From: Allomesorhizobium camelthorni
Lineage (GTDB): Bacteria > Pseudomonadota > Alphaproteobacteria > Rhizobiales > Rhizobiaceae
DNA: 64,000 nt
Assembly (NCBI RefSeq): GCF_011045125.1
Contig: NZ_JAAKZF010000022.1
Location: 17,351 to 81,350 of the forward strand
Direction: 5' to 3'
The translations under genes and the position numbers were made by a program. The notes under the pieces were generated by a model, which saw only the letters and a list, made by a program, of their open reading frames with translations, did not search any database and had not been told where the DNA came from. The first letter of the stretch is position 1; each line of letters opens with the position of its first letter. Below are positions 8,932 to 24,467 of the stretch, one piece after another.

Positions 8932-8975
8932 CAACATTTGTAAATGCAATCATTGTATTTGTTGAGATAGGGAGG
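8928..8975 (+). promoter_or_regulatory. Promoter and operator of the gamma-resorcylate operon
   Basis: TTGACA at 8928-8933 is followed by the motif TTGTAAATGCAA (8938-8949) in the spacer and an ATTGTATTT-like -10 region at about 8952-8960. The 12-bp motif is the exact reverse complement of TTGCATTTACAA at 7692-7703. Between -35 and -10 a bound repressor would block polymerase. A short TGTTG-A-CAACA inverted repeat overlaps the -35. Confidence 0.6.
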
Positions 8976-8986
8976 AGGAAGCCCTC

Positions 8987-9496: not shown

Positions 9497-9524
9497 GTCC
9501 CGCAATCTATTTCAGGAGGAACCC

Positions 9525-10757
9525 ATGACACTTGGCGCTATCGAGGCCAGGAGGGAGGACGTTGCCGTCATCGGCGGGAGCCTTAAGGACCGCGTGGCGG
9601 AACTGTTCCCTCTCATTCGGCAGCGGGCGTTGGCAACCGAGCGCGCGCGGCGCGTGCCGGCGGCCAACATCGCCGCTCTGCGCGAGATGGGCTATTTCGA
9701 CGTGGTGAAGCCTGCCGCCTATGGCGGTTCGCCGCGGCCTTTCGCCGAACTCGTCGATGCGAACATCGAGCTTTCCGCCGCCTGCGCCTCCACCGGCTGG
9801 GTCGCAGGCCTGCTTTCGGCGCATCAATGGCTGCTCGCCATGTTCCCGAAAGAGGCGCAGGACGACGTCTGGGACGAAAATCCCGGCGCGCTCTTGTGCG
9901 GCTCCTATGCGCCCACCTCCATGGCCGAGCGCGTCGAAGGCGGCTATCGCCTCAATGGACGCTGGTCCTTCGCCAGCGGCTGCGACAATGCGCAATGGTC
10001 GCTGTGCGCGGCCATCCTTCCCACTCGTGGCGAGGAGAAGCCGGTTCCCGCGTTCCTGCTCGTTCCGGCGCACGAATACATGATTGACGATACATGGGAG
10101 GTGGTGGGCCTCGCCGGTACGGGGTCGAAGACCCTCGTGCTCGACAATGTGGTGGTGCCGGAGCACCGCGTGCTCACCTTCCCGCAGGCTACCAGCGGCA
10201 GGACGCCGGGTGCCAAGGTCTATCCGCGTCAGGGGCTGTTCAACATGCCCTTGCTGACGGGTATCCCTTCCTGCCTGGCTTCAGCTGCCGTAGGCGCTGC
10301 CAAGGGGGCGCTGGAAAGCTACGTCGCCTCGATCTCAACGCGCGTTACGCGCGGCGCGGTGGCCGGCGGCAACAATCGCATGGCCGAGTTTCCCACCATC
10401 CAGCTTCGCGTCGCGGAAGCGGCGGCGAGCGTCGATGCCGCGCGCGAAATCCTGCTGCGCGATGTCGCGCACGCCGAGGCATTGGCCGGGTCAGGGGCCG
10501 GGTCGGGGAATGCGTTCTCGGTGGAGGACCGCCTTGTCAGCCGTCGTGGCCAGGCTTTCGCCGTGAGTCTTGCGCTGCGCGCCGTGGAGGCGCTCAACGC
10601 CTCGACCGGCGGCACGGGGCTCAACCTGGAGAATCCCGTCCAGCGTGCCTGGCGCGACGCCAACGCCGTCGGTCGCCACATCAGCATGAACTGGGATGCC
10701 GTCGGCACCATGATCGGCCAGCACATGCTCGGCCTCGAACCCAAGGGTCAGTACTGA
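9525..10757 (+). CDS. graA: Oxygenase component of resorcinol hydroxylase (acyl-CoA dehydrogenase fold)
   Basis: 410 residues with the acyl-CoA dehydrogenase fold of class D flavin monooxygenases (HpaB/HsaA type). The N-terminal helical part has ALREMGYFDVVKPAAYGG and ASTGWVAGLLSAHQW; the middle beta domain has GGYRLNGRWSFASGCDNAQW; the C-terminal helices end with the active-site region ISMNWDAVGTM. Using reduced flavin from the adjacent reductase it would hydroxylate resorcinol to hydroxyquinol (1,2,4-trihydroxybenzene). The assignment rests on family plus position beside the decarboxylase that makes resorcinol. AGGAGG precedes the ATG. Confidence 0.85.
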   Translation: MTLGAIEARREDVAVIGGSLKDRVAELFPLIRQRALATERARRVPAANIAALREMGYFDVVKPAAYGGSPRPFAELVDANIELSAACASTGWVAGLLSAHQWLLAMFPKEAQDDVWDENPGALLCGSYAPTSMAERVEGGYRLNGRWSFASGCDNAQWSLCAAILPTRGEEKPVPAFLLVPAHEYMIDDTWEVVGLAGTGSKTLVLDNVVVPEHRVLTFPQATSGRTPGAKVYPRQGLFNMPLLTGIPSCLASAAVGAAKGALESYVASISTRVTRGAVAGGNNRMAEFPTIQLRVAEAAASVDAAREILLRDVAHAEALAGSGAGSGNAFSVEDRLVSRRGQAFAVSLALRAVEALNASTGGTGLNLENPVQRAWRDANAVGRHISMNWDAVGTMIGQHMLGLEPKGQY

Positions 10758-10789
10758 CCCGCGCTCGAACGCACCTCAAGGGAGGAAAC

Positions 10790-11764
10790 ATGCAAGGCAA
10801 GATCGCGCTCGAGGAGCATTTCGCCATTCCCGAAACGCTGATGGACTCGGCCGGCTTCGTGCCGGGGGACTATTGGACGGAATTGCAGAGGCGGCTGCTC
10901 GACATCCAGGACACGCGGCTGAGGCTTATGGACCAGCACGGGATCGATATGATGATCCTGTCGCTGAACGCGCCTGCCGTTCAGGCCATCCCCGACACCG
11001 GCAGGGCCCTCGAAATTTCACGCCGCGCCAATGATGCGCTGGCCGAGGAGTGCGCCAAGCGCCCCGACCGGTTCCGCGCCTTTGCAGCCCTGCCGCTGCA
11101 GGACCCGGAAGCGGCATCACGCGAGCTGGAGCGCTGCGTCAAGGATCTCGGCTTCGTCGGCGCACTGGTGAATGGCTTCAGCCAGCGCAGCGACACCAGC
11201 GATCTGCTCTACTACGATCTGCCGCAATATCGCAGCTTCTGGGCCACGCTCGCCGCGCTCAACATGCCGTTCTACCTGCATCCGCGCAATCCATTGCCGC
11301 AGGACAGCCGCATCTATGAGGGCCATCCGTGGCTGATGGGTCCCACCTGGGCCTTCGCGCAGGAAACGGCGGTGCACGCGCTGCGGCTGATGGGCTCGGG
11401 CCTGTTCGACGAGCATCCAGGCCTACAGATCATCCTCGGCCACATGGGCGAGGGCCTGCCCTATATGATGTGGCGCATCGACAACCGCAATGCGTGGGTG
11501 AAAGTGCCGCCGAAATACCCGGCCAAGCGGCGCATCGCGGATTATTTCAACGAGAACTTCTACATCACCACCTCGGGCAACTTCCGCACCCAGACGCTGA
11601 TCGACGCGATGCTGGAAATCGGCTCGGACCGCATCCTCTTCTCCACCGACTGGCCGTTCGAGAACATCGATCATGCAGCCGACTGGTTCGACAGCGCCAC
11701 CATCTCGGAGGCGGACCGCGTCAAGATCGGCCGCACCAACGCAAAGGCGCTGTTCAAGCTGTAA
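10790..11764 (+). CDS. graF: Gamma-resorcylate (2,6-dihydroxybenzoate) decarboxylase
   Basis: 324 residues of the amidohydrolase-fold decarboxylases, starting MQGKIALEEHFAIPE as in gamma-resorcylate decarboxylases. All expected metal and catalytic residues are at the known positions: E8, H10, H164 (FYLHPRNP), H218 (LGHMGE) and D287 (STDWPFE). The enzyme removes CO2 from 2,6-dihydroxybenzoate to give resorcinol, reversibly and without organic cofactor. The ATG at 10790 is preceded by GGGAGG; the open frame runs far upstream but only as an overlap with the oxygenase gene. It feeds the two-component hydroxylase encoded just before it. Confidence 0.93.
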   Translation: MQGKIALEEHFAIPETLMDSAGFVPGDYWTELQRRLLDIQDTRLRLMDQHGIDMMILSLNAPAVQAIPDTGRALEISRRANDALAEECAKRPDRFRAFAALPLQDPEAASRELERCVKDLGFVGALVNGFSQRSDTSDLLYYDLPQYRSFWATLAALNMPFYLHPRNPLPQDSRIYEGHPWLMGPTWAFAQETAVHALRLMGSGLFDEHPGLQIILGHMGEGLPYMMWRIDNRNAWVKVPPKYPAKRRIADYFNENFYITTSGNFRTQTLIDAMLEIGSDRILFSTDWPFENIDHAADWFDSATISEADRVKIGRTNAKALFKL

Positions 11765-11775
11765 GGAGACGAGGA

Positions 11776-12660
11776 ATGACGGCCAGGCGATATCCGCTCT
11801 TCTCCGAAGAGACCTCCGCGGAGGTGGTCAATGCGCGCATGGGCGCGGACGCGGATCCGCGGCTGCGCGAAGTGATGGCGGCGATCGTCCGCCATCTTCA
11901 TGCGGCGGTGAAGGAAGTGGAGCCGACGCATGAGGAATGGCTGGCGGCCATCGAGTTCCTCACCAGGACCGGCCACATGTGCACGGACTGGCGGCAGGAG
12001 TTCATTCTGCTGTCGGACGTACTCGGCGTGTCCATGCTGGTCGATGCGATCAACCATCGCCGCCCATCCGGCGCCACGGAAAACACGATCCTCGGACCGT
12101 TCTACGTGCCTGAGGCTCCCAGATACGAGCGCGGCACGAATATCTGTCTCGACGGCAAGGGCGAGCCGCTGGTCGTGGGCGGCAGCGTGCGCGACACGGA
12201 GGGAAAGCCGATCGAGGGCGCGCTCATCGACGTCTGGCAGACCAATGACGACGGCTTTTACGACGTGCAGCAGAAGGGCGTGCAGCCGGACTGGAACCTG
12301 CGCGGCGTCTTCACCACGGACGCTGACGGCAGCTATCGCTTCCGCTCCGTCAAGCCGCGCTATTATCCCATCCCGGATGACGGGCCGGTGGGCAAGCTGC
12401 TGGGCCAGCTCGGGCGGCACCCAAACCGCGCGGCGCACATCCATTTCATCGTTACCGCGCCGGGCTACGAACCACTCATCACCCACATCTTCCCGCCTGA
12501 CTGCGAATATCTCGACCAGGACGCTGTGTTCGGCGTAAAGGAGAGCCTGATCGCGGATTTCCGGCGTATCGAGGAGCCCGGAACGGACGAAGATGCTGGT
12601 CTCGCGGGGCCCTTCTGGAGCGTGAATTGGGACTTCGTACTGACGAGGTCAGGTGGCTGA
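11776..12660 (+). CDS. graB: Hydroxyquinol 1,2-dioxygenase
   Basis: 294 residues of the intradiol ring-cleavage dioxygenases: N-terminal helical dimerisation domain (MCTDWRQEFILLSDVLGVS) and catalytic beta-sandwich. The four non-haem Fe(III) ligands are visible: Y162 (GFYDVQ), Y197 (RYYPIP), H221 and H223 (AAHIHF). The length and TENTILGPFY motif match hydroxyquinol rather than catechol enzymes. It opens hydroxyquinol between the ortho hydroxyls to maleylacetate. The ATG at 11776 has GGAGACGAGG upstream. The end overlaps or abuts the maleylacetate reductase start. Confidence 0.92.
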   Translation: MTARRYPLFSEETSAEVVNARMGADADPRLREVMAAIVRHLHAAVKEVEPTHEEWLAAIEFLTRTGHMCTDWRQEFILLSDVLGVSMLVDAINHRRPSGATENTILGPFYVPEAPRYERGTNICLDGKGEPLVVGGSVRDTEGKPIEGALIDVWQTNDDGFYDVQQKGVQPDWNLRGVFTTDADGSYRFRSVKPRYYPIPDDGPVGKLLGQLGRHPNRAAHIHFIVTAPGYEPLITHIFPPDCEYLDQDAVFGVKESLIADFRRIEEPGTDEDAGLAGPFWSVNWDFVLTRSGG

Positions 12661-12661
12661 C

Positions 12662-13717
12662 ATGCAGGCATTCACCTATACAGGCCTTCCCACAAGGGTC
12701 ATCTTCGGCATTGGCACGCTTGACAAGCTCACCGCCGAGGTAGAGCGCCTCGGCGTCTCGCGCGCGCTCGTGCTCTCCACGCCCCGTCAGCGGGAAATGG
12801 TGGAGGATGCGGCGCGGCGCCTCGGGGCGCTTGCCGCCGGCATCTTCTCAGAAGCGGCCATGCACACGCCCGTAGACGTGACCGAGCGGGCAATGCGGGA
12901 GGTGGAGCGCTGCGGCGCGGACGGCATTGTCGCAATCGGCGGCGGATCGACCACCGGACTCGGCAAGGCAATTGCGCTGCGCACGAACCTGCCGCAGCTT
13001 GTGGTGCCCACCACCTATGCGGGCTCGGAAATGACGCCGATCCTCGGGGAGACGGAGCACGGCCGCAAGACCACATTGCGCAACCCGAAGGTGCTTCCCG
13101 AAACGGTCATCTATGACGTGTCGCTGACGCTCGAGCTGCCTGTGAAGCTTTCCGCCGTCAGCGGCATGAACGCTATCGCCCATGCGGTGGAGGCGCTTTA
13201 CGCGCAGGACCGCAACCCTGTGGTCGACCTCATGGCCGATGAAGGGCTCGCCGCGCTCGCCAGGGCGCTGCCGGGCATCGTAGCGAAACCCGACGATCTC
13301 GATGCGCGGTCGGATGCGCTTTATGGCGCTTGGCTCTGCGGCATCTGCCTCGGCTCGGTCGGCATGGCTCTGCATCACAAGCTCTGCCACACGCTGGGCG
13401 GTATGTTCGATCTTCCCCACGCGGAAACGCACGCAGTCATCCTGCCCCATGCGATGCGCTACAACACGAACGCGGCACCTGCGGCGGCGGCCAAGGTGGC
13501 GCGCGCTCTCGGGGCAGGGGACGCCGCAAGGGGTTTGCAGGATCTCGCGCGCCGCGTTGGCGCACCGGTGTCGCTCAGGGAGATCGGCATGACCGCGGAG
13601 GGTATCGAGCCGGCGGTAGCGCAAGCGATGTCGAACCCGTATTGGAACCCCGAGCCGCTCGTCGAGACCCGCATCCGTGAACTTCTGGAGCGCGCGTTCC
13701 ATGGCTCAGATGCGTGA
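12662..13717 (+). CDS. graC: Maleylacetate reductase
   Basis: 351 residues of the iron-alcohol dehydrogenase superfamily. The start FTYTGLPTRVIFGIGT is typical of maleylacetate reductases, followed by the dinucleotide-binding GIVAIGGGSTTGLGKAIA, the VVPTTYAGSEMTPILGETE segment, and the histidine cluster (HHKLCHTLGG, LPHAETHAVILPH) where other family members bind metal. It reduces maleylacetate to 3-oxoadipate with NAD(P)H, the last dedicated step of the resorcinol branch. The ATG at 12662 follows the dioxygenase stop by one base; a GTG at 12653 would overlap it and is equally possible. Confidence 0.92.
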   Translation: MQAFTYTGLPTRVIFGIGTLDKLTAEVERLGVSRALVLSTPRQREMVEDAARRLGALAAGIFSEAAMHTPVDVTERAMREVERCGADGIVAIGGGSTTGLGKAIALRTNLPQLVVPTTYAGSEMTPILGETEHGRKTTLRNPKVLPETVIYDVSLTLELPVKLSAVSGMNAIAHAVEALYAQDRNPVVDLMADEGLAALARALPGIVAKPDDLDARSDALYGAWLCGICLGSVGMALHHKLCHTLGGMFDLPHAETHAVILPHAMRYNTNAAPAAAAKVARALGAGDAARGLQDLARRVGAPVSLREIGMTAEGIEPAVAQAMSNPYWNPEPLVETRIRELLERAFHGSDA

Positions 13718-13751
13718 GAGCAGTCGACCACGCAGGGAATATCCGCGTGGT

Positions 13752-14561
13752 CTATTTCGCGTCGGCCATGGTCATGGGGGCGAAGGAAAGCTCCTTGCAG
13801 AAGGCAATGAGGCGCGTAACGGCTTCCGATCCCGGCTGGACCAAAATGGGGTCGGTGCCAATCAAGGTCGCCACGGCCTGCGCTTCTCCCTGCCAGTCGA
13901 GGATGGGAGCAGCGATGGCAACAAGGCCGGGAATGAATCTGCCTTCTACCGAGGCGTAACCCTGGGCGCGAATGGTCTCGACCAGCTTATCGATATCCCG
14001 CTGCGTTGGCACGAGATCCGAAGCGATTGCCGGGTTCTTGCGGGCGTGGCGCATCTCGGCCTCGCGGATCGCTCGGAGTGGCGCGGGCGGCGCCCAGGCG
14101 AGGAAGGCGCGGCCCGTGGCGGAATTGAGCAGGGGCAAGGTGGTGCCAAGGCCCATCGAAGTCACGGTAGGCGATGCCGCGCGCTCCCAGCGGATCACCG
14201 TCGCACCCTGATTTCCCCAGACGGAGAGCAGGGCCGTCAGACCCGACTCCGTGCACAGATCGGGCAAGGCGTCGGAGGCACGGTTGACGAAATCATGCCG
14301 GGCAAGTGCCGAAAGGCCGAGGGTGACCGCGCCAGGACCGAGATCGTATTTCCCGGAGCGGCCGGCCTGTTCCACAAGACCCGCATGCTGGAAGGAGGCG
14401 AGGTAACGGTGAACCTTGCTGGGCGGCATGCGGCACTCGCGGGCGAGCTCCGACAGCGACGCCGGTCCGCGGCGTTCCATCATGGCGCCGAGGAGCCGCA
14501 ATGCCGCGTCGAGCGATTGGATGCCGCCCGTCTGCCCTTCGCCCTTATCGCCCCTGGCCAT
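13752..14561 (-). CDS. IclR-family transcriptional regulator
   Basis: 269 residues. The N-terminal winged helix reads IQSLDAALRLLGAMMERRGPASLSELA in two parts, then the recognition helix CRMPPSKVHRYLASFQHAGLVEQ. A C-terminal GAF-like effector domain follows (TLPLLNSATGRAFLA, then ASVEGRFIPGLVAIAAPILDW). IclR proteins control aromatic-acid operons by binding a pathway acid. The ATG at 14561 overlaps the 3' end of the thioesterase gene by 17 bases; the frame is open further upstream but only as overlap. It is convergent with the maleylacetate reductase gene (34-base gap) and probably governs the divergent fusion-gene operon. Confidence 0.88.
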   Translation of the reverse strand: MARGDKGEGQTGGIQSLDAALRLLGAMMERRGPASLSELARECRMPPSKVHRYLASFQHAGLVEQAGRSGKYDLGPGAVTLGLSALARHDFVNRASDALPDLCTESGLTALLSVWGNQGATVIRWERAASPTVTSMGLGTTLPLLNSATGRAFLAWAPPAPLRAIREAEMRHARKNPAIASDLVPTQRDIDKLVETIRAQGYASVEGRFIPGLVAIAAPILDWQGEAQAVATLIGTDPILVQPGSEAVTRLIAFCKELSFAPMTMADAK

Positions 14562-14961
14562 TGTCTTCCACCATTCTGCGCAATGCTTCGATTTCCGCGG
14601 CGACCATACCGTTATCGGTGCGCTTGAACAGCGCCCGCAACTCGCTCCCCACAACCGTGATGTGGCCGCCGACGCGCCCTTCATAGGAAAGACGCAGGGT
14701 TTTGCGGCCCCATTCCTCGACGGAAAGGGTGAGGGTCAGGACATCGCCGTCGCGCATCGGCCGACGGAATTGGGCGCCAGCCTCCATTAGCCCCAGGCCA
14801 ATGGCTCCCAGTCTTTCGCAGAGCGCGCCATGCCCGCCGAAACGCCTGAGCCAGTCATGGAAGGTGCGGTCGAACCACGCGTAAACGTGCGGATAAAAGA
14901 CGATGCCGGCGGGGTCGCAATCGCCAAAACTGATCGCCCAATCAAGGCTGTGCACCGTCAT
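14545..14961 (-). CDS. Hotdog acyl-CoA thioesterase, probably gentisyl-CoA thioesterase
   Basis: 138 residues of the 4-hydroxybenzoyl-CoA thioesterase family, with the diagnostic start SFGDCDPAGIVFYPHVYAWF containing the catalytic Asp, and a hotdog core ending in ELRALFKRTDNGM. I chose the ATG at 14961, preceded by GGAG; in-frame upstream ATGs lack a better site. It is divergent from the CoA-ligase/hydroxylase fusion gene, so its expected job is to release the hydroxylated aromatic acid (gentisate, if the substrate is salicylate) from CoA for ring cleavage. The substrate is inferred from context only. Confidence 0.85.
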   Translation of the reverse strand: MTVHSLDWAISFGDCDPAGIVFYPHVYAWFDRTFHDWLRRFGGHGALCERLGAIGLGLMEAGAQFRRPMRDGDVLTLTLSVEEWGRKTLRLSYEGRVGGHITVVGSELRALFKRTDNGMVAAEIEALRRMVEDNGQGR

Positions 14962-15049
14962 AATTTTCTGCTCCATAAAAAGCATTGCATAATCTGGAAA
15001 ATAACCTATCCTTCTAGTCTCGGTCTGTCGAGTGAGTTTGGGAGGAGGC
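14962..15049. promoter_or_regulatory. Divergent promoter region between thioesterase and fusion gene
   Basis: An 88-base AT-rich gap with AAAAAGCATTGCATAATC at 14977-14994. It must hold promoters for both directions and the probable IclR operator. GGAGGAGG sits directly before the fusion gene start. No clear palindrome was identified. Confidence 0.45.
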
Positions 15050-17794
15050 ATGGCTAGGCTGTCCAGCGTCGAGATCTTGGGCGGAGGCCCCGCGGGGCTC
15101 TATGCAGCGATCCTGTTGCGACGTTTCCTGTCGGACGCGCGGGTGCGCGTGACCGAGCAAAATCCAGAGGGCGCGACCTTCGGCTTCGGTGTGGTCTTCT
15201 CTGACCAGGCGCTGGATTTCCTCAAGGCCGACGATCCCGAGACCCATGATCTTGTGACGCCGCGCATGGAGCGCTGGCGGAACATGACGCTGAACCTGCC
15301 CGCTGGGCAGGTGATCCTCGACGGCGTCGGATTTGCCGCCGTCGGCCGGCTGGAGTTGATCGAGATCCTGCGCAAGCGGGCCGAAGCGGTCGGCGTGGAA
15401 ATGCGCTTCTCGTACACAGTGACCGCGCTTGACGAATTGCAGGCGGATCTGATCATCGGGGCGGATGGGCTGAACTCCCTGGTCCGCCGTTCGCGCGAGG
15501 CGGAATTCGCGCCGGTGCTTGAGCACTTCAGCAACCGCTTCGCATGGTTCGGCACGGAACGCCCCTTCGACACGCTGACCCAGACCTTCGTGGAGACCGA
15601 GAAGGGGGCGCTGAACGCGCATCACTACCGGTTCGCCCCGAACCGCAGCACCTTCATCGTTGAATGCGATGAGGCCACCTTCGGCGCATACGGCTTCTCG
15701 GACATGGACGAGACGCAGAGCGCGCGGCTGTGTGAAACGATCTTTACCGACGTTCTGGAAGGCGCGCCGCTGATCACTAACAAGTCGATGTGGCGGCAGT
15801 TTCCAAGGCTATGGTGCCAAAACTGGGTCGCCGGACGGCATGTGCTTTTGGGCGACGCCGCCCATACCGCGCATTTCTCGATCGGTTCCGGCACCCGGCT
15901 GGCGATGGAGGATGCCATCGCGCTCGTCCGCTCGCTGGCCGCGCATGACGATATCGATGAGGCGCTGGTCGCCTACCAGGCCGAGCGGCAGCCGGTCGCC
16001 AGGAAGATTGTCGACGCCGCCAACACCTCTGCGAATTGGTATGAGAGCTTCGCCGCCAAGATGGCCCTGCCGCCAGTCGATTTCGCTTTCGACTACCTGA
16101 CGCGATCCGGCCGCATGGACATGGAGCGTCTGCGCAAGATCGCGCCGGGCTTCATGGCCCGCTACGAGGCCGAGAAGGCAGCGGTTGGCAGCGCGCTCGC
16201 CGACCCGGTGAAGGACGATGCGCCCGGTGCCGTCGAGATCGGCTTTGACAGGGCGGCACACCCGAACTGCTCGGCCATCCTGTGGAACAATCTCGCCCGC
16301 AATGCGGACAAGCCCGCGGTGATTGGGCCGGCTGGTACGCTGACCTATGCCGAACTGGTGGCCGAGGCGGCGCGGTGGGGCAACGCCTTCATCGCCGCCG
16401 GGCTGAAGCGCGGAGACCGCATCCCGTTCTTTCTCGATGACACACCGGTCTATCCCGCGGCCTTCTTCGGGGCGGTGCGGGCCGGTTTCGTGCCCGTGCT
16501 GCTCAATATCCAAACCACGCCCGACGTTCTGAATTTCTTCCTGCAGGACACCGGCGCACGGATCGCCCTATGCGAGGCGTCCCTGGCGGACCGTTTCGGG
16601 CCGGAGACGCTGAAGGGCACCGCGCTGGAACAGGTGGTGATCGCGAACGGCACGGCCGAGGGGGCAGGGCGCATCGCAGCCGCCGACTTCCTCGCCGGCC
16701 AGCCGCAGACGCTCGACTGTGCCGACACCGGCCCGGACGACATGGCGTTCTGGATGTACTCCTCCGGCTCCACCGGTCGGCCCAAGGGCATCGTGCACCT
16801 GCATCACGACATGGCCTATACGCAGGCGTCCTTCGGTGAGCACGTCTTGAAGCTGCGTCCCGACGACATCTGCTTCTCGGTTCCGAAGATCTTCTTCGCC
16901 TATGGTTTCGGGAATGCGATCACCTTTCCCTTCTCGATCGGCGCGACCGCGCTTCTGCTGCCGGGCCAGCCTCGCCCCAACGCTGTGCTGGACGCGATCG
17001 AGCGTTTTCGTCCCACGGTGCTCTTTGGCCTGCCGACGCTTTACACCGCACTGGCGCGGGCCGAGGACGTGGAGGCGCGCGACTTGAGTTCGCTGCGCCA
17101 GTCCATGTCGGCGGCGGAAATCCTGTCGCAAGAAATCTATGTCTCCTGGAAGGCGCTGACGGGTCACGGCCCCACCGAGGGATTGGGTTCGACGGAGATG
17201 CTGCACATCTATCTTTCGAATAGCCTCGACGATCACCGGATCGGTTCTGCCGGCGCGTGCGTGCCAGGCTATGAGGTGCGCCTCGAGACGCCCGACGGCA
17301 AGCCGGCCGGTCCCGGCGAGGAAGGCGTGATGTTCGTGCGCGGCCATTCCTCGGCACCCTGCTACTGGAACCGGCCGGACAAGACCCGCGACACCATGCG
17401 GGGCGATTGGCTCTACACCGGCGACCGCTTCATCGAGAAGGACGGCTATTACTACTTCCAGGGGCGCGCCGACGAGCTGATCAAGGTGTCGGGCCAGTGG
17501 GTCTGGCCGCTGGAGGTGGAGCGCTGCCTTAACGAGCACCCCGACGTGCACGAATGCGCCGTCATGGCGCATGAAATGGCAGACCGCCGGATGACGCTGA
17601 GAGCCGTGGTGCGGTTGCGTGATGGCAAGGCCGGGAGCGAGGAGCAGAGCGAAGCCCTGCGCGCCTACATCAAGTCGCGGCTGCAGCCATACAAATATCC
17701 GCGCATCGTCGAGTACGTCGCCGACCTGCCCAAGACCGGCACCGGCAAAATAGACCGGCAGGTATTGCTGCGGGTGAAAGAGAAAAGTTTGTGA
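15050..17794 (+). CDS. Fusion of salicylyl-CoA 5-hydroxylase-like flavoprotein and aryl-CoA ligase
   Basis: 914 residues in one uninterrupted frame. Residues about 1-390 are an FAD monooxygenase of the salicylyl-CoA 5-hydroxylase/anthraniloyl-CoA monooxygenase type: GGGPAGLYAA near the start, TFGFGVVFSDQAL, GADGLNS and GDAAHTAHFSIGSGTRLAME. Residues about 400-914 are an AMP-forming benzoate-CoA-ligase-type enzyme: YSSGSTGRPKGIVHLHHD (P-loop, about residue 570), LGSTEMLHIY, YTGDRF, the hinge GRADELIKVSGQWVWPLEVE and the catalytic lysine in PKTGTGKID. Known relatives join the hydroxylase to an OYE-like domain instead. The chain could activate an aryl acid and hydroxylate the thioester. The adjoining thioesterase and gentisate genes indicate salicylate to gentisyl-CoA. 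The ATG follows GGGAGG. Confidence 0.88.
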   Translation: MARLSSVEILGGGPAGLYAAILLRRFLSDARVRVTEQNPEGATFGFGVVFSDQALDFLKADDPETHDLVTPRMERWRNMTLNLPAGQVILDGVGFAAVGRLELIEILRKRAEAVGVEMRFSYTVTALDELQADLIIGADGLNSLVRRSREAEFAPVLEHFSNRFAWFGTERPFDTLTQTFVETEKGALNAHHYRFAPNRSTFIVECDEATFGAYGFSDMDETQSARLCETIFTDVLEGAPLITNKSMWRQFPRLWCQNWVAGRHVLLGDAAHTAHFSIGSGTRLAMEDAIALVRSLAAHDDIDEALVAYQAERQPVARKIVDAANTSANWYESFAAKMALPPVDFAFDYLTRSGRMDMERLRKIAPGFMARYEAEKAAVGSALADPVKDDAPGAVEIGFDRAAHPNCSAILWNNLARNADKPAVIGPAGTLTYAELVAEAARWGNAFIAAGLKRGDRIPFFLDDTPVYPAAFFGAVRAGFVPVLLNIQTTPDVLNFFLQDTGARIALCEASLADRFGPETLKGTALEQVVIANGTAEGAGRIAAADFLAGQPQTLDCADTGPDDMAFWMYSSGSTGRPKGIVHLHHDMAYTQASFGEHVLKLRPDDICFSVPKIFFAYGFGNAITFPFSIGATALLLPGQPRPNAVLDAIERFRPTVLFGLPTLYTALARAEDVEARDLSSLRQSMSAAEILSQEIYVSWKALTGHGPTEGLGSTEMLHIYLSNSLDDHRIGSAGACVPGYEVRLETPDGKPAGPGEEGVMFVRGHSSAPCYWNRPDKTRDTMRGDWLYTGDRFIEKDGYYYFQGRADELIKVSGQWVWPLEVERCLNEHPDVHECAVMAHEMADRRMTLRAVVRLRDGKAGSEEQSEALRAYIKSRLQPYKYPRIVEYVADLPKTGTGKIDRQVLLRVKEKSL

Positions 17795-17800
17795 CATCGC

Positions 17801-17815
17801 CGGGCCGGAGGCCCG
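17801..17815 (+). promoter_or_regulatory. Short hairpin after the fusion gene
   Basis: CGGGCC-gga-GGCCCG, a perfect 6-bp stem with a 3-base loop, six bases after the fusion-gene stop. Two further small GC stems follow before the receptor gene (CCGGCATGCCGG; GAGCC-ggga-GGCTC). With no T-run they are more likely processing or attenuation stems than terminators. Confidence 0.4.
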
Positions 17816-17903
17816 ATGGGTCGAACACGAGCCGGCATGCCGGTGAGCCGGGAGGCTCCGTGCAACGGTTCGCCAGGCAGTTCTTATCAACGGGAGGAAT
17901 GAA

Positions 17904-18869
17904 ATGAAGATCAGCAGCTATTTATTCGCAGCCGGCCTGGCGCTCGGGCTCACCGTGCCCGCCGCCGCGCAGGTCAGCTCCATTGCGACCCCGCCGCAGG
18001 GATCGGTATGGAACACCATGTCGTCGGTCATCGCCGGTCAGGCGCGTGAAAGCAGCGACCTGCGCATGGTGGTGCAGCCTTACGGCGGCAATGCACAGAT
18101 GATGCAGGCCCTGAACGAAGGCATCGCGGAATTCGCGCTCAATGATGTCAATGACGCCATTTCGGCGGTCGCGGGCAGCGGCGAATATAGCGCTGCGATG
18201 CCCAATCTGCGTGCCGTAGCGCGCATCAATCCCTTCCCGGTAGGGCTTTACGTGAAGGAAAGTTCCGGGTTGACCGCGGTAGCGGATCTCACAGGCAAAA
18301 GCGTGCCCTCGGGCTGGGACGGCTTTCCCATCGCGCGATCCCACATCACCGCCATCCTCGCCGCCGGTGGGCTGACCTGGGATGACGTCAGCCAGGTCCC
18401 GGTGCCGGAACTGATCCGCGGCTCGGATGACATGGCTTCCGGGCGTGTCGACAGCGCGTTCTTCGCCGTCGGCGGACCGAAGGTTGCGGAGATCGACGCC
18501 TCGGTCGGCGGCGTGCGGTTTCTGACCGTCGAAGCCAATGAAGAGAACCTTGCGAAGATTCGGGCGGTCCGCCCGGCCTTCTACTTCTCCGAAGTTACCC
18601 CCGCCCCGCCGCGCGTGGGCGTCAAGGAGCCGATGATGTTCGTGACCTGGGACAATGTCCTCGTCGCGGGCAGCCACGTGCCGGATGAGCAGGTGAAGCG
18701 CTTCTTGTCCGTCGTCTTCGACAACATCGAAGCGATCGGCAATGCCTACCCGCCGCTCAAGGCCCTCAATCTCGAGACCGCCTACAAGAGCTACCCCGGA
18801 TTGGAATACCACCCTGGCGCCATCGCCTTCTTCGAAGAGCGCGGTGTCGAGCAGTCGGACTCCGAATAA
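17904..18869 (+). CDS. TAXI-family TRAP transporter solute receptor
   Basis: 321 residues with a cleavable signal peptide (SSYLFAAGLALGLTVPAAAQ) and the TAXI-type receptor pattern: the early IATPPQGSVWNTMSSVIAGQ segment, VVQPYGGNAQMMQALNEGIAEFALND, and VADLTGKSVPSGW in the hinge region. TAXI receptors serve TRAP transporters with a single fused membrane protein, which follows at 18933. Placed between the aryl-CoA ligase fusion and the gentisate genes, it most likely binds the aromatic acid fed into this pathway. GGGAGG lies just upstream of the ATG. Confidence 0.9.
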   Translation: MKISSYLFAAGLALGLTVPAAAQVSSIATPPQGSVWNTMSSVIAGQARESSDLRMVVQPYGGNAQMMQALNEGIAEFALNDVNDAISAVAGSGEYSAAMPNLRAVARINPFPVGLYVKESSGLTAVADLTGKSVPSGWDGFPIARSHITAILAAGGLTWDDVSQVPVPELIRGSDDMASGRVDSAFFAVGGPKVAEIDASVGGVRFLTVEANEENLAKIRAVRPAFYFSEVTPAPPRVGVKEPMMFVTWDNVLVAGSHVPDEQVKRFLSVVFDNIEAIGNAYPPLKALNLETAYKSYPGLEYHPGAIAFFEERGVEQSDSE

Positions 18870-18884
18870 TCTTTAGCTTTGCGA

Positions 18885-18905
18885 GGGGCGGCTTCACGCC
18901 GCCCC
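18885..18905 (+). promoter_or_regulatory. Hairpin after the TAXI receptor gene
   Basis: Perfect 8-bp stem GGGGCGGC / GCCGCCCC with a TTCAC loop, 15 bases after the receptor stop and 27 bases before the permease start. As with the receptor genes ending at 380 and 26352, the stem probably sets receptor mRNA above permease mRNA. Confidence 0.6.
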
Positions 18906-18932
18906 GGTCGACCTGGATCGGGAGGGCATAGC

Positions 18933-20897
18933 GTGACCGAAAACATCCCGCAAATCGCATCCGGAACCCCGGAAGATGTGAGCGGACCGGCATGGGTCCG
19001 GCGCCTGGTCCATGCGCTCGCCGGCACCCTGACCCTGGTCGCCGTGGCGCAGGCTGCCGATCTGCCGTCCCGGCTCGGCTACTCGTACTATACCGAGCAG
19101 TTCCTGGCGGTGATCCTCGGCTTGAGCCTTGGGCTCGTGTTCCTTGTCCGCCGGGCACGGCAGTCGGAAGACGCAACCAATGCGCCGCCAATCCCCGATC
19201 TGGTCCTTGCCGCGCTCGGCCTCGGCCTTTCCTTCTATGTCGCCTGGGCCTATCCGGTTCTTCTGGGCAGCGCCATGTCCTTGCCTTGGGACGCGCTTGC
19301 CGTCGGCGGCTTGCTGTTTCTCCTCGTGCTGGAGGGGCTGCGTAGAACGGTGGGCATGACGCTCGTGGTCGTCGTGCTGGCGATCGTGATTTACGGGCTT
19401 ATCGGCCATCTGGTGCCAGGCATCCTGCAAACCCGCGAGGTTCAGGCGCCGCGCATGGCCGTCTATCTCGCCTTCGATCCAAACGGCCTGTTCGGAATAA
19501 CGCTCAACGTCGCCGCGACCGTCGTCGTCGCCTTTATCCTGTTCGGGCAGCTTTTGTTGCGCTCGGGCGGCGCCGATTTCTTCAATGACATCGCGCTCGC
19601 CACCATGGGCCACAGGCGCGGCGGCTCCGCGAAGATCTCCATCGTTGCATCGGCCCTGTTCGGCTCCATCTCGGGCGTGGTCGTGTCGAACATCGTTGCG
19701 ACCGGCGTGGTGACGATCCGGCTGATGATCAATTCCGGCTTCCGCCGCACCACGGCGGCCGCCGTGGAAGCGGTGGCCTCAACCGGCGGGCAGATCGCGC
19801 CGCCTGTTATGGGCGCAGTGGCCTTCCTGATGGCCGATATCCTGCAAAAACCCTATTCGGAAATCGTGGTAGCAGCGATCGTGCCTGCGCTGCTCTACTA
19901 CGTCGCGCTCTATGTGCAGGCCGATCTGCAAGCAGCCAAGCACAATATCAGGCCGGTGGAGGGCGAGGAGATCCCGCCCGTGGGCCGCGTCCTGTCGCGC
20001 GGATGGGTTTTCGCACTGCCTTTTGCGGCGATCGTTGCCGCGCTGTTCTGGTTCAACCAGCGGGCCGAGACAGCGGCTCTGTGGGGTGGCGGTGCGGCCC
20101 TGTTGATCGGGCTTTTCATGGGCTACGGCAAGTCCCGCATGTCGATGCGCGACCTCTGGCGTGCCGCCGTCGAAAGCGGTCAGTCGATCATCGACATCAT
20201 CATGATCTCAGCGGCTGCCGGTTTCATCATCGGCGTGCTGAATGTCACCGGTCTCGGATTTGCCGTGACGTTCGCTCTGGTCGACCTGGGGCAGGGCAAC
20301 TTGTTCTTGCTGTTGCTCATTTCCGCTGCGGTCTGCCTCGTGCTCGGCATGGGCATGCCCACCGTGGGCGTCTACCTGCTTCTCGCCGTGCTCGTCGCCC
20401 CCTCGCTGATCGAGACGGGCGTGGAGCCCATCGCCGCCCATCTCTTCATCTTCTATCTCGGCATGATGTCGATGGTGACGCCGCCCATCGGCATCGGCGC
20501 TTTCTTCGCCGCCTCCATCGCCAAGGCTCCGCCGCTCGCGACGGCCTTCGAGTCGATGCGCTTCGGCTGGACTGCCTATATCATCCCCTTCCTCTTCGTC
20601 TTCTCGCCCGCCCTGCTCTTGATCGGCGATCCGGTCGAAATCGCAATCGCGGTCACGACGGCGATCCTTGGGGTCTATGCGATCTCGAGCGGTTTCGTTG
20701 GCTGGCTGCATGGCCCCGCCGGCATCGTCCGGCGCATCCTGACGGGGCTTGCAGGCGCGGCGCTGTTGCTGCCGCCGGGAATTCTCGGAGCCGCAACGCT
20801 CTGGATCAACGCGGCGGGCTTTGCCGCGCTGGCTCTGCTCTGGCTGCTGGGGCGAGACAGGCAAAGCGCCGTTTCCGTTCCCCACCCTGCGCAATGA
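18933..20897 (+). CDS. TRAP transporter fused permease (DctQM type, TAXI system)
   Basis: 654 residues, roughly sixteen hydrophobic segments. An N-terminal four-helix DctQ-like part (residues about 25-190) is joined to a DctM-like part. Typical DctM stretches are SGVVVSNIVATGVVTIRLM, STGGQIAPPVMGAVAFLMAD, GMGMPTVGVYLLLAVL and SMVTPPIGIGAFFAASIAKA. GTG at 18933 follows GGGAGGGCATA; the upstream open frame includes the hairpin and is unlikely to be coding. The fused arrangement is the norm for TAXI systems. Function: Na+-coupled uptake of the receptor's ligand, inferred here to be salicylate or a related acid. Confidence 0.92.
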   Translation: MTENIPQIASGTPEDVSGPAWVRRLVHALAGTLTLVAVAQAADLPSRLGYSYYTEQFLAVILGLSLGLVFLVRRARQSEDATNAPPIPDLVLAALGLGLSFYVAWAYPVLLGSAMSLPWDALAVGGLLFLLVLEGLRRTVGMTLVVVVLAIVIYGLIGHLVPGILQTREVQAPRMAVYLAFDPNGLFGITLNVAATVVVAFILFGQLLLRSGGADFFNDIALATMGHRRGGSAKISIVASALFGSISGVVVSNIVATGVVTIRLMINSGFRRTTAAAVEAVASTGGQIAPPVMGAVAFLMADILQKPYSEIVVAAIVPALLYYVALYVQADLQAAKHNIRPVEGEEIPPVGRVLSRGWVFALPFAAIVAALFWFNQRAETAALWGGGAALLIGLFMGYGKSRMSMRDLWRAAVESGQSIIDIIMISAAAGFIIGVLNVTGLGFAVTFALVDLGQGNLFLLLLISAAVCLVLGMGMPTVGVYLLLAVLVAPSLIETGVEPIAAHLFIFYLGMMSMVTPPIGIGAFFAASIAKAPPLATAFESMRFGWTAYIIPFLFVFSPALLLIGDPVEIAIAVTTAILGVYAISSGFVGWLHGPAGIVRRILTGLAGAALLLPPGILGAATLWINAAGFAALALLWLLGRDRQSAVSVPHPAQ

Positions 20898-20949
20898 CGC
20901 ATCGACCGCAGCAACATTGCTAACTGGCTTCAACAACAAGGAGACACGA

Positions 20950-21645
20950 ATGTCCTACGTCTTTTCTCCCGCACCGGTCGCGACGGTGGCAGTCGCCGAC
21001 AACCCGGACAGGTTTCCGGTGCGGCGCATCTTCTGTGTCGGGAGGAATTACGCCGCCCATGCCCGCGAGATGGGCAAGGACCCGGAGCGCGAACTGCCGT
21101 TCTTCTTCAGCAAGCCGGCAGACACGGTCGTGGATGCGGGCGAGACCGTTACCTATCCGCCGCAGACGGAGAACTTCCATTACGAGGCGGAACTGGTCGT
21201 GGCGATCGGCACGGGCGGGCGCAACATTCCCGAGGCGGATGCACTGACGCATGTCTGGGGCTATGCCATCGGCAACGACCTGACCCGGCGCGACCTGCAA
21301 CTCCAGGCGCGCGACAAGGGACGGCCCTGGGATTTCGGAAAGGCCTTCGACCGCTCCGCCGTTATCGGCCCGGTTCATCCGGTGGCGACCGTCGGGCATC
21401 TGGACAAGGGCGCGATCCGGCTCACCGTGAACGGCGAGACCAGGCAGGACGCGGATCTGACCGAGCTGATCTGGTCGGTGCCCGAGATCATCTCGTTCCT
21501 GTCGCATTCCATTGCGCTCGCGCCGGGCGACCTGATCATGACCGGTACGCCGGCAGGCGTGGGCGCGCTGGTGCCGGGCGACGTATGCGTGGTGAGCATC
21601 GAAGGGCTGGGCGAGATCGCTACCCAGATCGGCCCCAGAGGATAA
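20950..21645 (+). CDS. Fumarylacetoacetate hydrolase family protein, probable fumarylpyruvate hydrolase
   Basis: 231 residues, the short FAH-family size of NagK-like fumarylpyruvate hydrolases. Motifs: IFCVGRNYAAHAREMG, the metal-ligand segment FHYEAELVVAIGTGG, the YAIGNDLTRRDLQ loop, and the C-terminal DLIMTGTPAGVGAL. It hydrolyses fumarylpyruvate to fumarate and pyruvate, the final step of the gentisate route. AAGGAG precedes the ATG at 20950; the long upstream open frame is only an overlap with the permease gene. The isomerase and dioxygenase of the same pathway follow directly. Confidence 0.88.
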   Translation: MSYVFSPAPVATVAVADNPDRFPVRRIFCVGRNYAAHAREMGKDPERELPFFFSKPADTVVDAGETVTYPPQTENFHYEAELVVAIGTGGRNIPEADALTHVWGYAIGNDLTRRDLQLQARDKGRPWDFGKAFDRSAVIGPVHPVATVGHLDKGAIRLTVNGETRQDADLTELIWSVPEIISFLSHSIALAPGDLIMTGTPAGVGALVPGDVCVVSIEGLGEIATQIGPRG

Positions 21646-21647
21646 CG

Positions 21648-22295
21648 ATGACCCTGACGCTGCACAATTTCTTCCGCTCCTCGACCTCCACGCGGCTGCG
21701 CGCGGCGCTGAACCTCAAGGGCCTTGACTACGACTACGTGCCCTATGTCCTGCGGCGGGGAGACACGCGCAAGCCGGAGTACCTGGCGATGAACCCGGCC
21801 GGCCTCGTGCCGACGCTGGAGCGCCCCGACGGCACTTATCTGACGCAATCGCTGGCGATTATCGAGTGGCTGGAGGAAACCCATCCCGAGCCCGCCCTTC
21901 TGCCGTCCGATCCCGATGGCAGGGCGCGGGTCAGGGCGCTGGCGCTGATGATCGCCTGCGAGGTCCATCCGCTCAACAATCTCCGGGTGCTGGGCTATCT
22001 GGCAGACCGCTTCGGCGCCGATGAGGCGGCGCAAAAGGAATGGTTCACCCACTGGGTTGAAACCACCTTCGATGCCCTTGAAAAGATGTTGTCGTCGGAC
22101 CCGAGGACCGGCGCATTCTGCCATGGCGACGCGCCGGGGCTCGCCGACCTCTGCCTTTACGCGCAGGTCTGGAACAATCGCCGCTTCGACATCGGCACGT
22201 CGGCGTGGCCGACGATCGGCCGCATCTTCGAGCGGCTGGACGCAATCCCCGCCTTCAGTGATGCCGCACCCCCCAACCAGCTGGACGCTACCTGA
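21648..22295 (+). CDS. Glutathione S-transferase family, probable maleylpyruvate isomerase (NagL-like)
   Basis: 215 residues with the zeta-class GST layout: thioredoxin-like N-terminal domain (HNFFRSSTSTRLRAALNLKG with the active-site Ser cluster, NPAGLVPTLE and QSLAIIEWLEE), then a helical C-terminal domain (FCHGDAPGLADLCLY). Zeta-type GSTs in gentisate clusters isomerise maleylpyruvate to fumarylpyruvate with glutathione. The gene starts two bases after the hydrolase stop, so the two are coupled. A second, unrelated isomerase candidate lies at 23424, which makes the division of work uncertain. Confidence 0.85.
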   Translation: MTLTLHNFFRSSTSTRLRAALNLKGLDYDYVPYVLRRGDTRKPEYLAMNPAGLVPTLERPDGTYLTQSLAIIEWLEETHPEPALLPSDPDGRARVRALALMIACEVHPLNNLRVLGYLADRFGADEAAQKEWFTHWVETTFDALEKMLSSDPRTGAFCHGDAPGLADLCLYAQVWNNRRFDIGTSAWPTIGRIFERLDAIPAFSDAAPPNQLDAT

Positions 22296-22323
22296 CACCA
22301 ATTCGCAACCAGGAGGACGCGCG

Positions 22324-23424
22324 GTGCTCGACAAAGAAGAAGACACTCCCGCCAACGAAATGCAACCCGAGGACACACCTGAGCTGCGCGCGCTCTACAA
22401 GGGCTTCGAGGAGCAACATCTGCTGCCGCTCTGGACCCAGCTCGGCGACCTGATGCCGATCCATCCCAGGCCGCGGGCCGTGCCGCATGTCTGGAAATGG
22501 GCGGACCTGCTGCCGTTGGCGGAGCGGTCCGGCGAGCTTGTGCCGGTCGGGCGGGGCGGCGAGCGGCGGGCCATCGGCCTGGCCAACCCGGGGCTTGGCG
22601 GCCATGCTTATGTCAGCCCGACGCTCTGGGCCGCAATCCAGTATCTCGGCCCCCGGGAGACCGCTCCCGAGCACCGCCATGCGCAGAACGCCTTCCGCTT
22701 CGTGGTCGAGGGGGAGGGTGTCTGGACCGTGGTCAATGGCGATCCGGTGCGCATGAGCCGCGGCGATCTGCTCTTGACCCCTGGCTGGCATTTCCACGGT
22801 CATCACAATGACACCGACAAACCCATGGCCTGGATCGACGGGCTCGACATCCCCTTTGCGCAGCAGAACGATGTCGGCTTCTTTGAGTTCGGATCGGGCC
22901 GGGTGACCGACTACGCCACGCCGCGCTTCTCGCGAGGCGAGCGGCTCTGGTGCCATCCGGGCCTGCGTCCCCTGTCCGGGCTTCGCGACACCGTCAGCTC
23001 GCCCATCGGCGCCTATCGCTGGGAGCACACGGACCGCGCCCTGACCGAGCAGCTCCTGTTGGAAGAAGAAGGGCAGCCCGCGACGGTGGAGCAGGGCCAT
23101 GCGGCCATCCGCTACGTCAATCCCACGACCGGCGGCGATGTCATGCCGACGATCCGCTGCGAGTTCCATCGCCTGCGCGCCGGCACGCAAACGCCAACGC
23201 GGCGGGAGGTGGGCTCGTCCGTCTTCCAGGTGTTCGAGGGAGGGGGCGCCGTCGCCATCGATGGGGTGACGCATAAGCTCAATATCGGCGATCTGTTCGT
23301 AATTCCGTCCTGGGTGCCGTGGTCCCTTCAGGCCGAAACCCAATTCGATCTGTTCCGCTTCTCCGATGCCCCGATCATGGAGCGGCTGAACTTCGCGCGC
23401 ACCCACATCGAGGGCAGCGATTGA
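22324..23424 (+). CDS. Gentisate 1,2-dioxygenase
   Basis: 366 residues, a bicupin of the gentisate/salicylate 1,2-dioxygenase family. The first cupin carries the Fe(II) ligands in APEHRHAQNAFRFVVEGEG and LTPGWHFHGHHNDT. The second cupin (residues about 255-355) lacks a full ligand set, as is usual. It cleaves gentisate between the carboxyl- and hydroxyl-bearing carbons to maleylpyruvate. GTG at 22324 is preceded by AGGAGG with 7-base spacing; the upstream frame overlaps the GST gene. Salicylate 1,2-dioxygenase activity is possible in this family, but the upstream CoA genes favour gentisate. Confidence 0.92.
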   Translation: MLDKEEDTPANEMQPEDTPELRALYKGFEEQHLLPLWTQLGDLMPIHPRPRAVPHVWKWADLLPLAERSGELVPVGRGGERRAIGLANPGLGGHAYVSPTLWAAIQYLGPRETAPEHRHAQNAFRFVVEGEGVWTVVNGDPVRMSRGDLLLTPGWHFHGHHNDTDKPMAWIDGLDIPFAQQNDVGFFEFGSGRVTDYATPRFSRGERLWCHPGLRPLSGLRDTVSSPIGAYRWEHTDRALTEQLLLEEEGQPATVEQGHAAIRYVNPTTGGDVMPTIRCEFHRLRAGTQTPTRREVGSSVFQVFEGGGAVAIDGVTHKLNIGDLFVIPSWVPWSLQAETQFDLFRFSDAPIMERLNFARTHIEGSD

Positions 23425-24233
23425 TGGCTGAGAGCATCGAAGAGGCGCGCGCCTCCCTTCGAGCCAGGCAGGGCAATGGCGCCCGATACGACGCGGCCGC
23501 CGCACCCGCCCACCAGCTCGATTGGGCGCGGCGCGGCACGGCCTATTTCGCACGCCTCCTCAACGAGCTGTCGGACCGCGATCTCGATGCGCCGTCGGCG
23601 CTGCCGAGGCTGTCCCGGCGCCACGTCATTGCGCATGTCGGCTACCACGCCCGGTTTTTAAGCGAAATCGTCGCTTGGGCCCGGACAGGGCAGGAGGCGC
23701 CGTTTCCAAAGGCGGCGCAGGTATCGATGAGCGACGTCGCCCTCGGGGCCAGCCTGCCGTCGCGCGCGCTCCGCTATCTCTTTGATCATTCCGAAGTCCA
23801 CCTCAATGTCGAATGGCGCGACTTGAGCGATGCCGTCTGGGGCGCTTCGGTTCAGGATGTGGCGGGCCGGCGCATTGCGCTGCGCGAGACGCCGGTAATC
23901 CGCGCCCGTGCGCTATGGCTCCACGCGGTGGATCTGGGAGCGGGCAGCCGGTTTGCCGACATGCCGCCTGACTTCATAGATGCCTTGATCCGGCACCATG
24001 CGGCGGCTTATTCCGGCAAGGTCGCTTTCGCGCTTTCCTTCTCAGACCGGCCGGAACCGCTCGTAATCGGGGACGCGCCCGAGATCACGATCACGGGACA
24101 AGCGACGGACGTCGCCCGATGGCTCTGCAGCCGGGGCGTTCGGGAACTGCAGATAGCCGGCGGCACGCTCGCTGAAGCGCCTTGCTCAACTCTCGGCCTT
24201 ATTGACGCGGTCGATCCCTGGCCCGCGGTCTAG
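23424..24233 (+). CDS. DinB-superfamily maleylpyruvate isomerase-like protein
   Basis: 269 residues. The N-terminal four-helix bundle resembles mycothiol-dependent maleylpyruvate isomerases (SRRHVIAHVGYHARFLSEIV with a metal His), followed by ARALWLHAVDLGAGSRFAD, which corresponds to the second metal segment, and an alpha/beta SCP2-like C-terminal part. In the actinobacterial enzymes the second segment is E-x-x-x-H; here the Glu position reads Ala, so one ligand may be missing. The ATG overlaps the dioxygenase stop (TGATG), so the gene belongs to the operon. Proteobacteria lack mycothiol, so its thiol cofactor, if any, would differ. Confidence 0.75.
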   Translation: MAESIEEARASLRARQGNGARYDAAAAPAHQLDWARRGTAYFARLLNELSDRDLDAPSALPRLSRRHVIAHVGYHARFLSEIVAWARTGQEAPFPKAAQVSMSDVALGASLPSRALRYLFDHSEVHLNVEWRDLSDAVWGASVQDVAGRRIALRETPVIRARALWLHAVDLGAGSRFADMPPDFIDALIRHHAAAYSGKVAFALSFSDRPEPLVIGDAPEITITGQATDVARWLCSRGVRELQIAGGTLAEAPCSTLGLIDAVDPWPAV

Positions 24234-24467
24234 TTGGGCGGCATTGCGAAGCCTTTTGGGAGGCCGCCGACTTCGCGGCTCGCGCTGCCAGTCACGCCAA
24301 GCAGATATCTGGAGACTGTTGCTCACGAAACGTGGAGGGTTCAACACGATCCGCTGCTCGCGGTAGGGGCCGGCGAGAATGTTGTGCACACTTCGTCGAT
24401 AACGACCGCCGTTCTCCGGCCCGCCTTGCTATTCCGTTCGATGTCGCCGTGCGGTGGTCGATCCGCC
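24234..24467. other. Convergent intergenic gap, no gene seen
   Basis: 234 bases between the end of the gentisate operon (plus) and the end of the uronate operon (minus). No open frame, strong hairpin or repeat was recognised. Confidence 0.5.

Follow-up and report, generated by a model that had tools for sequence, protein, structure and literature searches.

A single-chain hydroxylase and ligase of Allomesorhizobium camelthorni, predicted to convert salicylate to gentisyl-CoA: likely fusion at a gene overlap and later separation

We analyzed a 64,000-nucleotide stretch of the Allomesorhizobium camelthorni genome (contig NZ_JAAKZF010000022.1, positions 17,351 to 81,350; hereafter the window), in which a single gene on the forward strand (15050..17794) joins a flavin adenine dinucleotide (FAD) hydroxylase to an aryl-coenzyme A (CoA) ligase of the type that forms adenosine monophosphate (AMP). 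Judging from sequence relationships, the product is very probably a bifunctional protein that converts salicylate to gentisyl-CoA, descended from one fusion at the overlap of two genes, which one descendant clade later separated again. The fused enzyme is real and widespread, the fused form is undescribed as far as we searched, and it combines two known enzymes in a new way. Of greater interest are the series of overlapping, fused, and re-separated versions and its connection with how direct cleavage of salicylate arose.

The fused gene and its spread

The open frame runs for 914 codons from the ATG at 15050 to the stop codon at 17792-17794; it is also open upstream to a GTG at 15032, which as a start would yield 920 amino acids (aa). 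The N-terminal CehH-like FAD monooxygenase domain (aa 1-370, 15050..16159) carries the motifs GGGPAGLY (15080-15103), GADGLNS (15458-15478), and GDAAHTAHF (15851-15877), and the GxGxxG, DG, and GD motifs of group A flavoprotein hydroxylases are all present. A short junction (aa 371-395, 16160..16234), located where the separate genes of deeper relatives show an ATGA overlap, leads into the CehG-like AMP-forming aryl-CoA ligase domain (aa 396-914, 16235..17791), in which we found all the AMP-forming motifs, namely the P-loop (16757-16789), the hinge (17462-17485), and the C-terminal lysine (Lys900, 17747-17749). All of these features lie on the forward strand. Pfam matches, each exceeding its cut-off, were obtained for FAD_binding_3 (PF01494, residues 127-323), AMP-binding (413-773), and AMP-binding_C (822-900), and the benzoate-CoA ligase model TIGR02262 scored 486.6 bits against a cut-off of 375.25 over residues 411-906. 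The frame and the Pfam and NCBIfam matches uphold the original prediction of one 914-codon frame with an FAD hydroxylase followed by a complete benzoate-CoA-ligase-type domain, and the motifs named in it were found in the sequence.

A search of protein databases with the whole chain, which had been proposed for listing domain architectures, returned all three domains (PF01494, PF00501, and PF13193) in every one of the best 120 of 7983 scored homologues; these cover 94-100% of the query at 71-95% identity. An independent, full-length fused copy with 94.9% identity is located on a Sinorhizobium sojae plasmid. Among 297 Rhizobiaceae genomes, 22 had a match: 11 carry the full-length fused gene (the window included), 10 carry two adjacent pieces (with a four-base overlap in eight and a gap in two), and one has the hydroxylase alone. 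That the fusion is rare is therefore not borne out. In comparison with the Nitratireductor luteus copy (95% identical), the ratio of nonsynonymous to synonymous substitution rates (dN/dS) was 0.066 in the hydroxylase part and 0.062 in the ligase part, with 0.124 in the junction of 25 codons. These low values indicate that selection keeps both the hydroxylase and the ligase halves. In addition, Lys900 and most P-loop positions are invariant in 53 of 53 fused sequences. A pattern for the STE motif matched only 34 of 119 rows and was dropped as too strict.

The pair appears as two genes in some database records, which would fit an assembly or sequencing artefact as the source of the joined frame. 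This explanation is contradicted by the independent copies, as the frame is joined over the full length in the best 120 of 7983 homologues and in ten other Rhizobiaceae genomes, and the junction stays in frame; together with purifying selection, these copies exclude the sequencing error or chance event that a stop or frameshift between the domains would have revealed. We regard an artefact as exceedingly improbable.

The named proteins among the best 120 of 7983 homologues are mostly labeled ‘benzoate-CoA ligase family protein’, and a two-step enzyme is thus known in databases by half of its function. Such labels suggest that genome annotations of rhizobia and roseobacters probably miss part of their salicylate catabolism. 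In plants, salicylate also acts as a signal in defence. Among the open-access papers listed in literature searches (25 of 218 in one of them), we saw no description of the fused form; a hydroxylase-ligase fusion goes unmentioned in the available portions of PMC9219206, PMC13215587, PMC11109138, PMC11264262, PMC10306065, PMC13280823, PMC6460240, PMC11335346, PMC12521323, and PMC3534580. Among the phage sequences searched, we detected distant ligases only.

Substrate and predicted pathway

Close counterparts of the two halves are annotated as separate genes on plasmids, including cehH and cehG in Salipiger abyssi and cehI, cehH, and cehG in Agrobacterium tumefaciens Sta004, with the same layout as in the window. 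The hydroxylase half is 72% identical to the annotated cehH product of Sta004, the ligase half is 74% identical to that of cehG, and the divergently transcribed thioesterase is 52% identical to that of cehI, and thus a CehGHI-type set stands side by side in the window. The identities of 72% and 74% are the best sequence-level evidence for salicylate as the substrate, and on their account the fused protein most likely makes gentisyl-CoA from salicylate. Together with the domain matches, they also back the identity and the likely joint task that had been proposed for the two halves.

We take the annotated ceh gene names to trace back to CehG, CehH, and CehI of Rhizobium sp. X9, which were reportedly described by Zhou in 2021 as three separate enzymes, a ligase, a hydroxylase, and a thioesterase, respectively. 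The CehGHI system shares with the window the same three predicted activities and the operon layout, a comparison that was made with the annotated genes and not with the X9 sequences. In that system the hydroxylase and the ligase are separate proteins, whereas in the window they form one chain; those annotated cehGH genes that could be placed on the tree described below fall within its re-separated clade, while the window protein is still fused. The CoA route for salicylate is not new, as CoA-mediated salicylate catabolism in Rhizobium sp. X9 was already reported in a 2021 paper cited in the available portion of PMC11335346.

Based on the protein families, the neighboring genes, and the annotated cehI-cehH-cehG operon of relatives, the following sequence of steps can be proposed. 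The ligase half would activate salicylate to salicylyl-CoA, which the hydroxylase half would convert to gentisyl-CoA. The divergent thioesterase would then free gentisate from gentisyl-CoA, and the downstream dioxygenase, isomerase, and hydrolase would cleave and degrade gentisate.

In Streptomyces, the sdgA/sdgC genes direct a similar route, in which salicylate is activated, hydroxylated as a CoA ester, and degraded by the gentisate route, and the activating enzyme and the hydroxylase are separate proteins. Activation, CoA-ester hydroxylation, and gentisate are thus common to both systems, which differ in the fusion found in the window. The sdgC gene is named in the available portions of PMC13215587 and PMC6460240.

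A different fusion partner is found in the NF006101 family (salicylyl-CoA 5-hydroxylase/oxidoreductase and anthraniloyl-CoA monooxygenase/reductase), whose N-terminal FAD hydroxylase is homologous to that of the window protein and whose C-terminal half is an OYE-type reductase. The window protein, with its AMP-binding C-terminal half, fails the whole-protein cut-off of this model, matching it over residues 7-377 only (model positions 3-385 of 768; 380.9 vs. 1078). The contrast with OYE-fused hydroxylases drawn in the original prediction holds within a single organism, as the same genome carries that other form too (1295.5 vs. 1078; 40% identical to the hydroxylase part of the window protein). 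Encoded near the OYE fusion in this genome are a benzoate-CoA-ligase-like protein that narrowly misses its cut-off (372.0 vs. 375.25), a kynureninase (288.2 vs. 246.4), and an enoyl-CoA hydratase. The locus seems to represent an anthranilate pathway, which calls for reduction of the ring, and the partner domain of the hydroxylase may follow the fate of the CoA ester.

Among solved structures, benzoate-CoA ligases (PDB 4eat, 2v7b, 4wv3) are 35-39% identical to the ligase half and are free-standing. The nearest solved structure to the hydroxylase half by sequence is VioD (PDB 8gqr, 3c4a), which contains no ligase and acts in violacein biosynthesis. The top rows of the Foldseek and VIA-align searches all belonged to the ligase half, and the hydroxylase half was placed by sequence alone. 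In a by-eye comparison with BadA, the residues of the ligase pocket did not distinguish the substrate, and clustering of neighboring genes of unassigned function in 25 loci revealed no gene pointing to it.

The neighboring genes require only that gentisate be the product, which leaves room for a fused protein acting mainly on 3-hydroxybenzoyl-CoA (by 6-hydroxylation) or on 4-hydroxybenzoyl-CoA (by 1-hydroxylation with side-chain migration), both of which also give gentisyl-CoA. By general chemistry both reactions also introduce the second hydroxyl para to the existing one, and the ligase half resembles the 3-hydroxybenzoate-CoA ligase HbdA, with 371.1 bits, under the cut-off of 1000. On the other hand, the separate homologues with 72-74% identity carry salicylyl-CoA hydroxylase and ligase annotations, and the best named family of the hydroxylase half is salicylyl-CoA 5-hydroxylase/oxidoreductase. 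We therefore consider another hydroxybenzoate improbable as the main substrate and retain salicylate.

Fusion, separation, and the case for channeling

We scanned named genomes with a hydroxylase profile and kept the best 80 loci, which comprise 18 fused genes, 39 overlapping pairs, 7 pairs with a gap, and 16 loci without a ligase nearby. The overlap measures exactly four bases in 38 of the 39 overlapping pairs and eleven bases in one; the ligase start is ATGA in 38 pairs and GTGA in one. In relatives outside the fused clade the two genes are separate, again with the hydroxylase followed by the ligase, which lies one frame off. Between conserved anchors, the junction length is divisible by three in 21 of 21 fused rows, whereas division by three leaves a remainder of two in all 13 measurable overlapping pairs (28 of 41 lacked an anchor); the commonest fused junction is 57 bases long and the shortest overlapping one is 56. 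A net change of +1 (or -2) bases at the overlap, which the tree suggests happened once, would have joined the two frames. The hydroxylase stands first because the genes were already in this order before the fusion.

The final tree was built from both domains of 50 rows with 1000 bootstrap trees. In it, the 12 rows with a gap between the genes group as a single clade in all of these bootstrap trees (1000 of 1000); fused and gap rows are united in 973, and the fused rows without the gap rows in none. A clade of fused rows only was rejected by the approximately unbiased (AU) test (p 4.4e-13). Earlier, smaller trees were built for the hydroxylase, for both domains (one of them a quick version), and for each domain alone (33 rows); the ‘fused’ label needs two changes in the trees of the hydroxylase, of both domains, and of each domain, and the ligase domain alone gave an AU p of 2.4e-4 for the fused-only clade. 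Loci L158 and L159, and then L178, L179, and L181, were added after the first tree, and all landed in the gap clade; the twelve gap rows include near-duplicates (L178 of L075 and L179 of L159). Row L136, which also has a gap, groups with an overlapping pair in an older lineage and was excluded from the twelve.

As the gap rows form one clade inside the fused group, we infer one fusion and one later fission. By the branching order, in which some nodes are weak, a history without fission would require about seven separate fusions. It is thus likely that two overlapping genes fused once and were later split again in one branch. The ligase of the re-separated clade would have gained its own ribosome-site-like stretch, as in all 12 gap rows a GGAG- or AGGA-type sequence lies no more than 20 bases ahead of the ligase start codon. 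With its overlapping, fused, and re-separated versions in related bacteria, the pair offers a natural series in which to ask whether joining consecutive enzymes aids flux.

Several observations weigh against the combined reading of a salicylate-converting enzyme with this history. With regard to the tree, the hydroxylase domain alone rejects the fused-only clade weakly (AU p 0.038, 33 rows), and support is low at some nodes along the path inside the fused clade. With regard to the substrate, all three hydroxybenzoyl-CoA isomers would receive the second hydroxyl at the position para to the existing one, and the window dioxygenase scores below the cut-off of the gentisate 1,2-dioxygenase model TIGR02272 (269.5 vs. 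442.1). The pathway neighborhood is also not universal among the 19 fused loci (18 scanned plus the window, five of them on stretches shorter than 20 kb), of which 12 have a thioesterase match and 13 a dioxygenase. Fused loci L079 and L094 have only a distant dioxygenase (34%), and the fused copies of Rhizobium leguminosarum sit elsewhere, without gentisate genes in the stretch examined.

The original prediction had proposed that the order of hydroxylase first and ligase second allows the CoA ester to pass from one half to the other. In agreement with a fusion that serves mainly to channel this ester from the ligase to the hydroxylase active site, the junction between the conserved domain ends is short, and the fusion has been kept across many lineages under purifying selection. 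However, the same order is found in the overlapping genes of deeper relatives and is older than the fusion, and one clade went back to separate genes yet kept the pathway genes; both facts speak against the view that channeling dictated the order or is indispensable. Modeling the structure for a channel between the active sites left the placement of the domains unfixed. In the AlphaFold model (53 sequences) the individual domains are well predicted, with a mean predicted local distance difference test score (pLDDT) of 85.5, but the predicted template modeling score (pTM) is 0.56, and at this pTM we make no claim of a channel. Channeling is thus unlikely to be the main reason for the fusion, although a channel between the active sites of the fused protein is possible. 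The benefit of the fusion is most likely the fixed 1:1 production of the two activities and the closeness of the two active sites.

In the wider set, 16 of 86 loci have a hydroxylase relative without a ligase. The ligase-free loci L111, L128, L134, L138, and L140 have neighborhoods that share other genes. In L122 (Bradyrhizobium sp. Gha), no ligase gene seems to lie between the hydroxylase and the isomerase and dioxygenase genes, unlike in close relatives.

The gene neighborhood and residue 106 of the dioxygenase

Upstream of the fused gene, two genes are encoded on the reverse strand, an IclR-family regulator (13752..14684; profile matches), also present beside the fusion in related loci, and the 4HBT hotdog thioesterase (14545..14961; ATG start inferred). 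The latter is the predicted, CehI-like gentisyl-CoA thioesterase; it matches the Pfam 4HBT family and, in the PDB, a 4-hydroxybenzoyl-CoA thioesterase. Downstream on the forward strand are a TAXI-type solute-binding protein of the tripartite ATP-independent periplasmic (TRAP) transporters (17904..18869; TIGR02122), a candidate importer of aromatic acids, with the substrate a guess, and a fused TRAP permease (18927..20897; TIGR02123), the start codon of which is not settled. They are followed by an FAH-family hydrolase, predicted to be a fumarylpyruvate hydrolase (20950..21645; profile matches), a MaiA-type isomerase, predicted to act on maleylpyruvate (21648..22295; TIGR01262 above cut-off), a gentisate 1,2-dioxygenase-like cupin (22324..23424, with an inferred GTG start at 22324; 22330-23421 analyzed), and a second maleylpyruvate isomerase-like protein (MDMPI_N; 23424..24233; profile matches). 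That one operon (21648-24233) encodes isomerases of both the MaiA type and the mycothiol type (MDMPI) is odd for an alphaproteobacterium; MDMPI recurs in relatives.

The gene order of the window recurs in Nitratireductor sp. OM-1, with the fused gene, and in Pseudosulfitobacter, with separate genes; Phaeobacter inhibens P88, also with separate genes, has one additional gene between FAH and MaiA. Besides the dioxygenase and thioesterase counted above, the 19 fused loci include IclR in 17, FAH in 11, MDMPI in 10, MaiA in 8, and the TRAP permease in 5. The two R. leguminosarum loci (L009 and L072) have a different setting, with phosphopantetheine-binding and ferritin-like proteins near L009, and another role is possible there.

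The window dioxygenase shares 84% identity with the well-studied salicylate 1,2-dioxygenase (SDO) of Pseudaminobacter salicylatoxidans, which was deposited as a gentisate 1,2-dioxygenase. An alternative reading, in favor of which PMC10306065 can be cited, is that the window dioxygenase cleaves salicylate directly and that the fused protein serves a different compound. However, at SDO position 106 the window enzyme has alanine, within the sequence WAAIQYLGP as in the G106A chain (PDB 3nst), whereas SDO (2phd) has Gly106. According to the available portion of PMC11109138, which cites Ferraroni 2013, the G106A variant of SDO oxidizes gentisate, and not salicylate or 1-hydroxy-2-naphthoate. With Ala106, the window dioxygenase thus most likely needs gentisate, and the isomerase and hydrolase genes also suit the gentisate route. 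Direct cleavage in the window is accordingly very unlikely, and we keep the reading in which gentisate is formed through the CoA esters.

The re-separated clade, which holds the annotated cehGH genes, also holds the SDO operon of P. salicylatoxidans, and the gene neighbors of SDO are thus the re-separated form of the window's fusion. At locus L159 (genome G735), the dioxygenase is identical over its length to the P. salicylatoxidans entry P0121 and one position off PDB 2phd, and it is accompanied by a gap-separated hydroxylase and ligase, a thioesterase, IclR, FAH, MaiA, and MDMPI. The operon of A. tumefaciens Sta004 (L179) shares 98.4% DNA identity with that of L159 over 7.8 kb. As the two loci come from different genera of Rhizobiaceae sensu lato, such identity points to an operon that was recently transferred as a whole. 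Of the 368 residues of the two dioxygenases, three differ, namely 5, 106 (glycine in L159, alanine in Sta004), and 368.

In the closest 120 listed homologues of the dioxygenase (representatives of 90% clusters), position 106 is alanine in 119 and glycine only in P0121, and 12 other active-site positions are identical across the same set. At the loci examined, of which several repeat, all dioxygenases of the close group have Ala106 except that of L159. As 119 of 120 listed homologues and the near-identical Sta004 operon have alanine, Gly106 looks recent and derived. A simple family-wide rule is countered by distant dioxygenases (31-37% identical) near other loci, which have glycine at the aligned column, and by the glycine form among the metagenomic hits in the available portion of PMC11109138. 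The nearly identical operons, with Gly106 in one and Ala106 in the other, suggest how direct salicylate cleavage arose. We lean towards a scenario in which it was a recent short-circuit by an Ala106-to-Gly change inside a transferred salicylyl-CoA operon, one in which the ligase and the hydroxylase had been fused by a one-base frame change and then split; the window enzyme would be the still-fused machine of this lineage.

Region 8987-13717 of the window contains an apparent gamma-resorcylate pathway (flavin reductase, HsaA-like monooxygenase, intradiol dioxygenase, and maleylacetate reductase), with a decarboxylase region annotated as tsdA in Rhizobium anhuiense. An S. sojae plasmid matches 82% of window positions 7000-26300. 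At 8136-8990, a TRAP DctM permease is matched by its C-terminal part alone (model positions 280-389 of 405), and the gene thus looks like a remnant.

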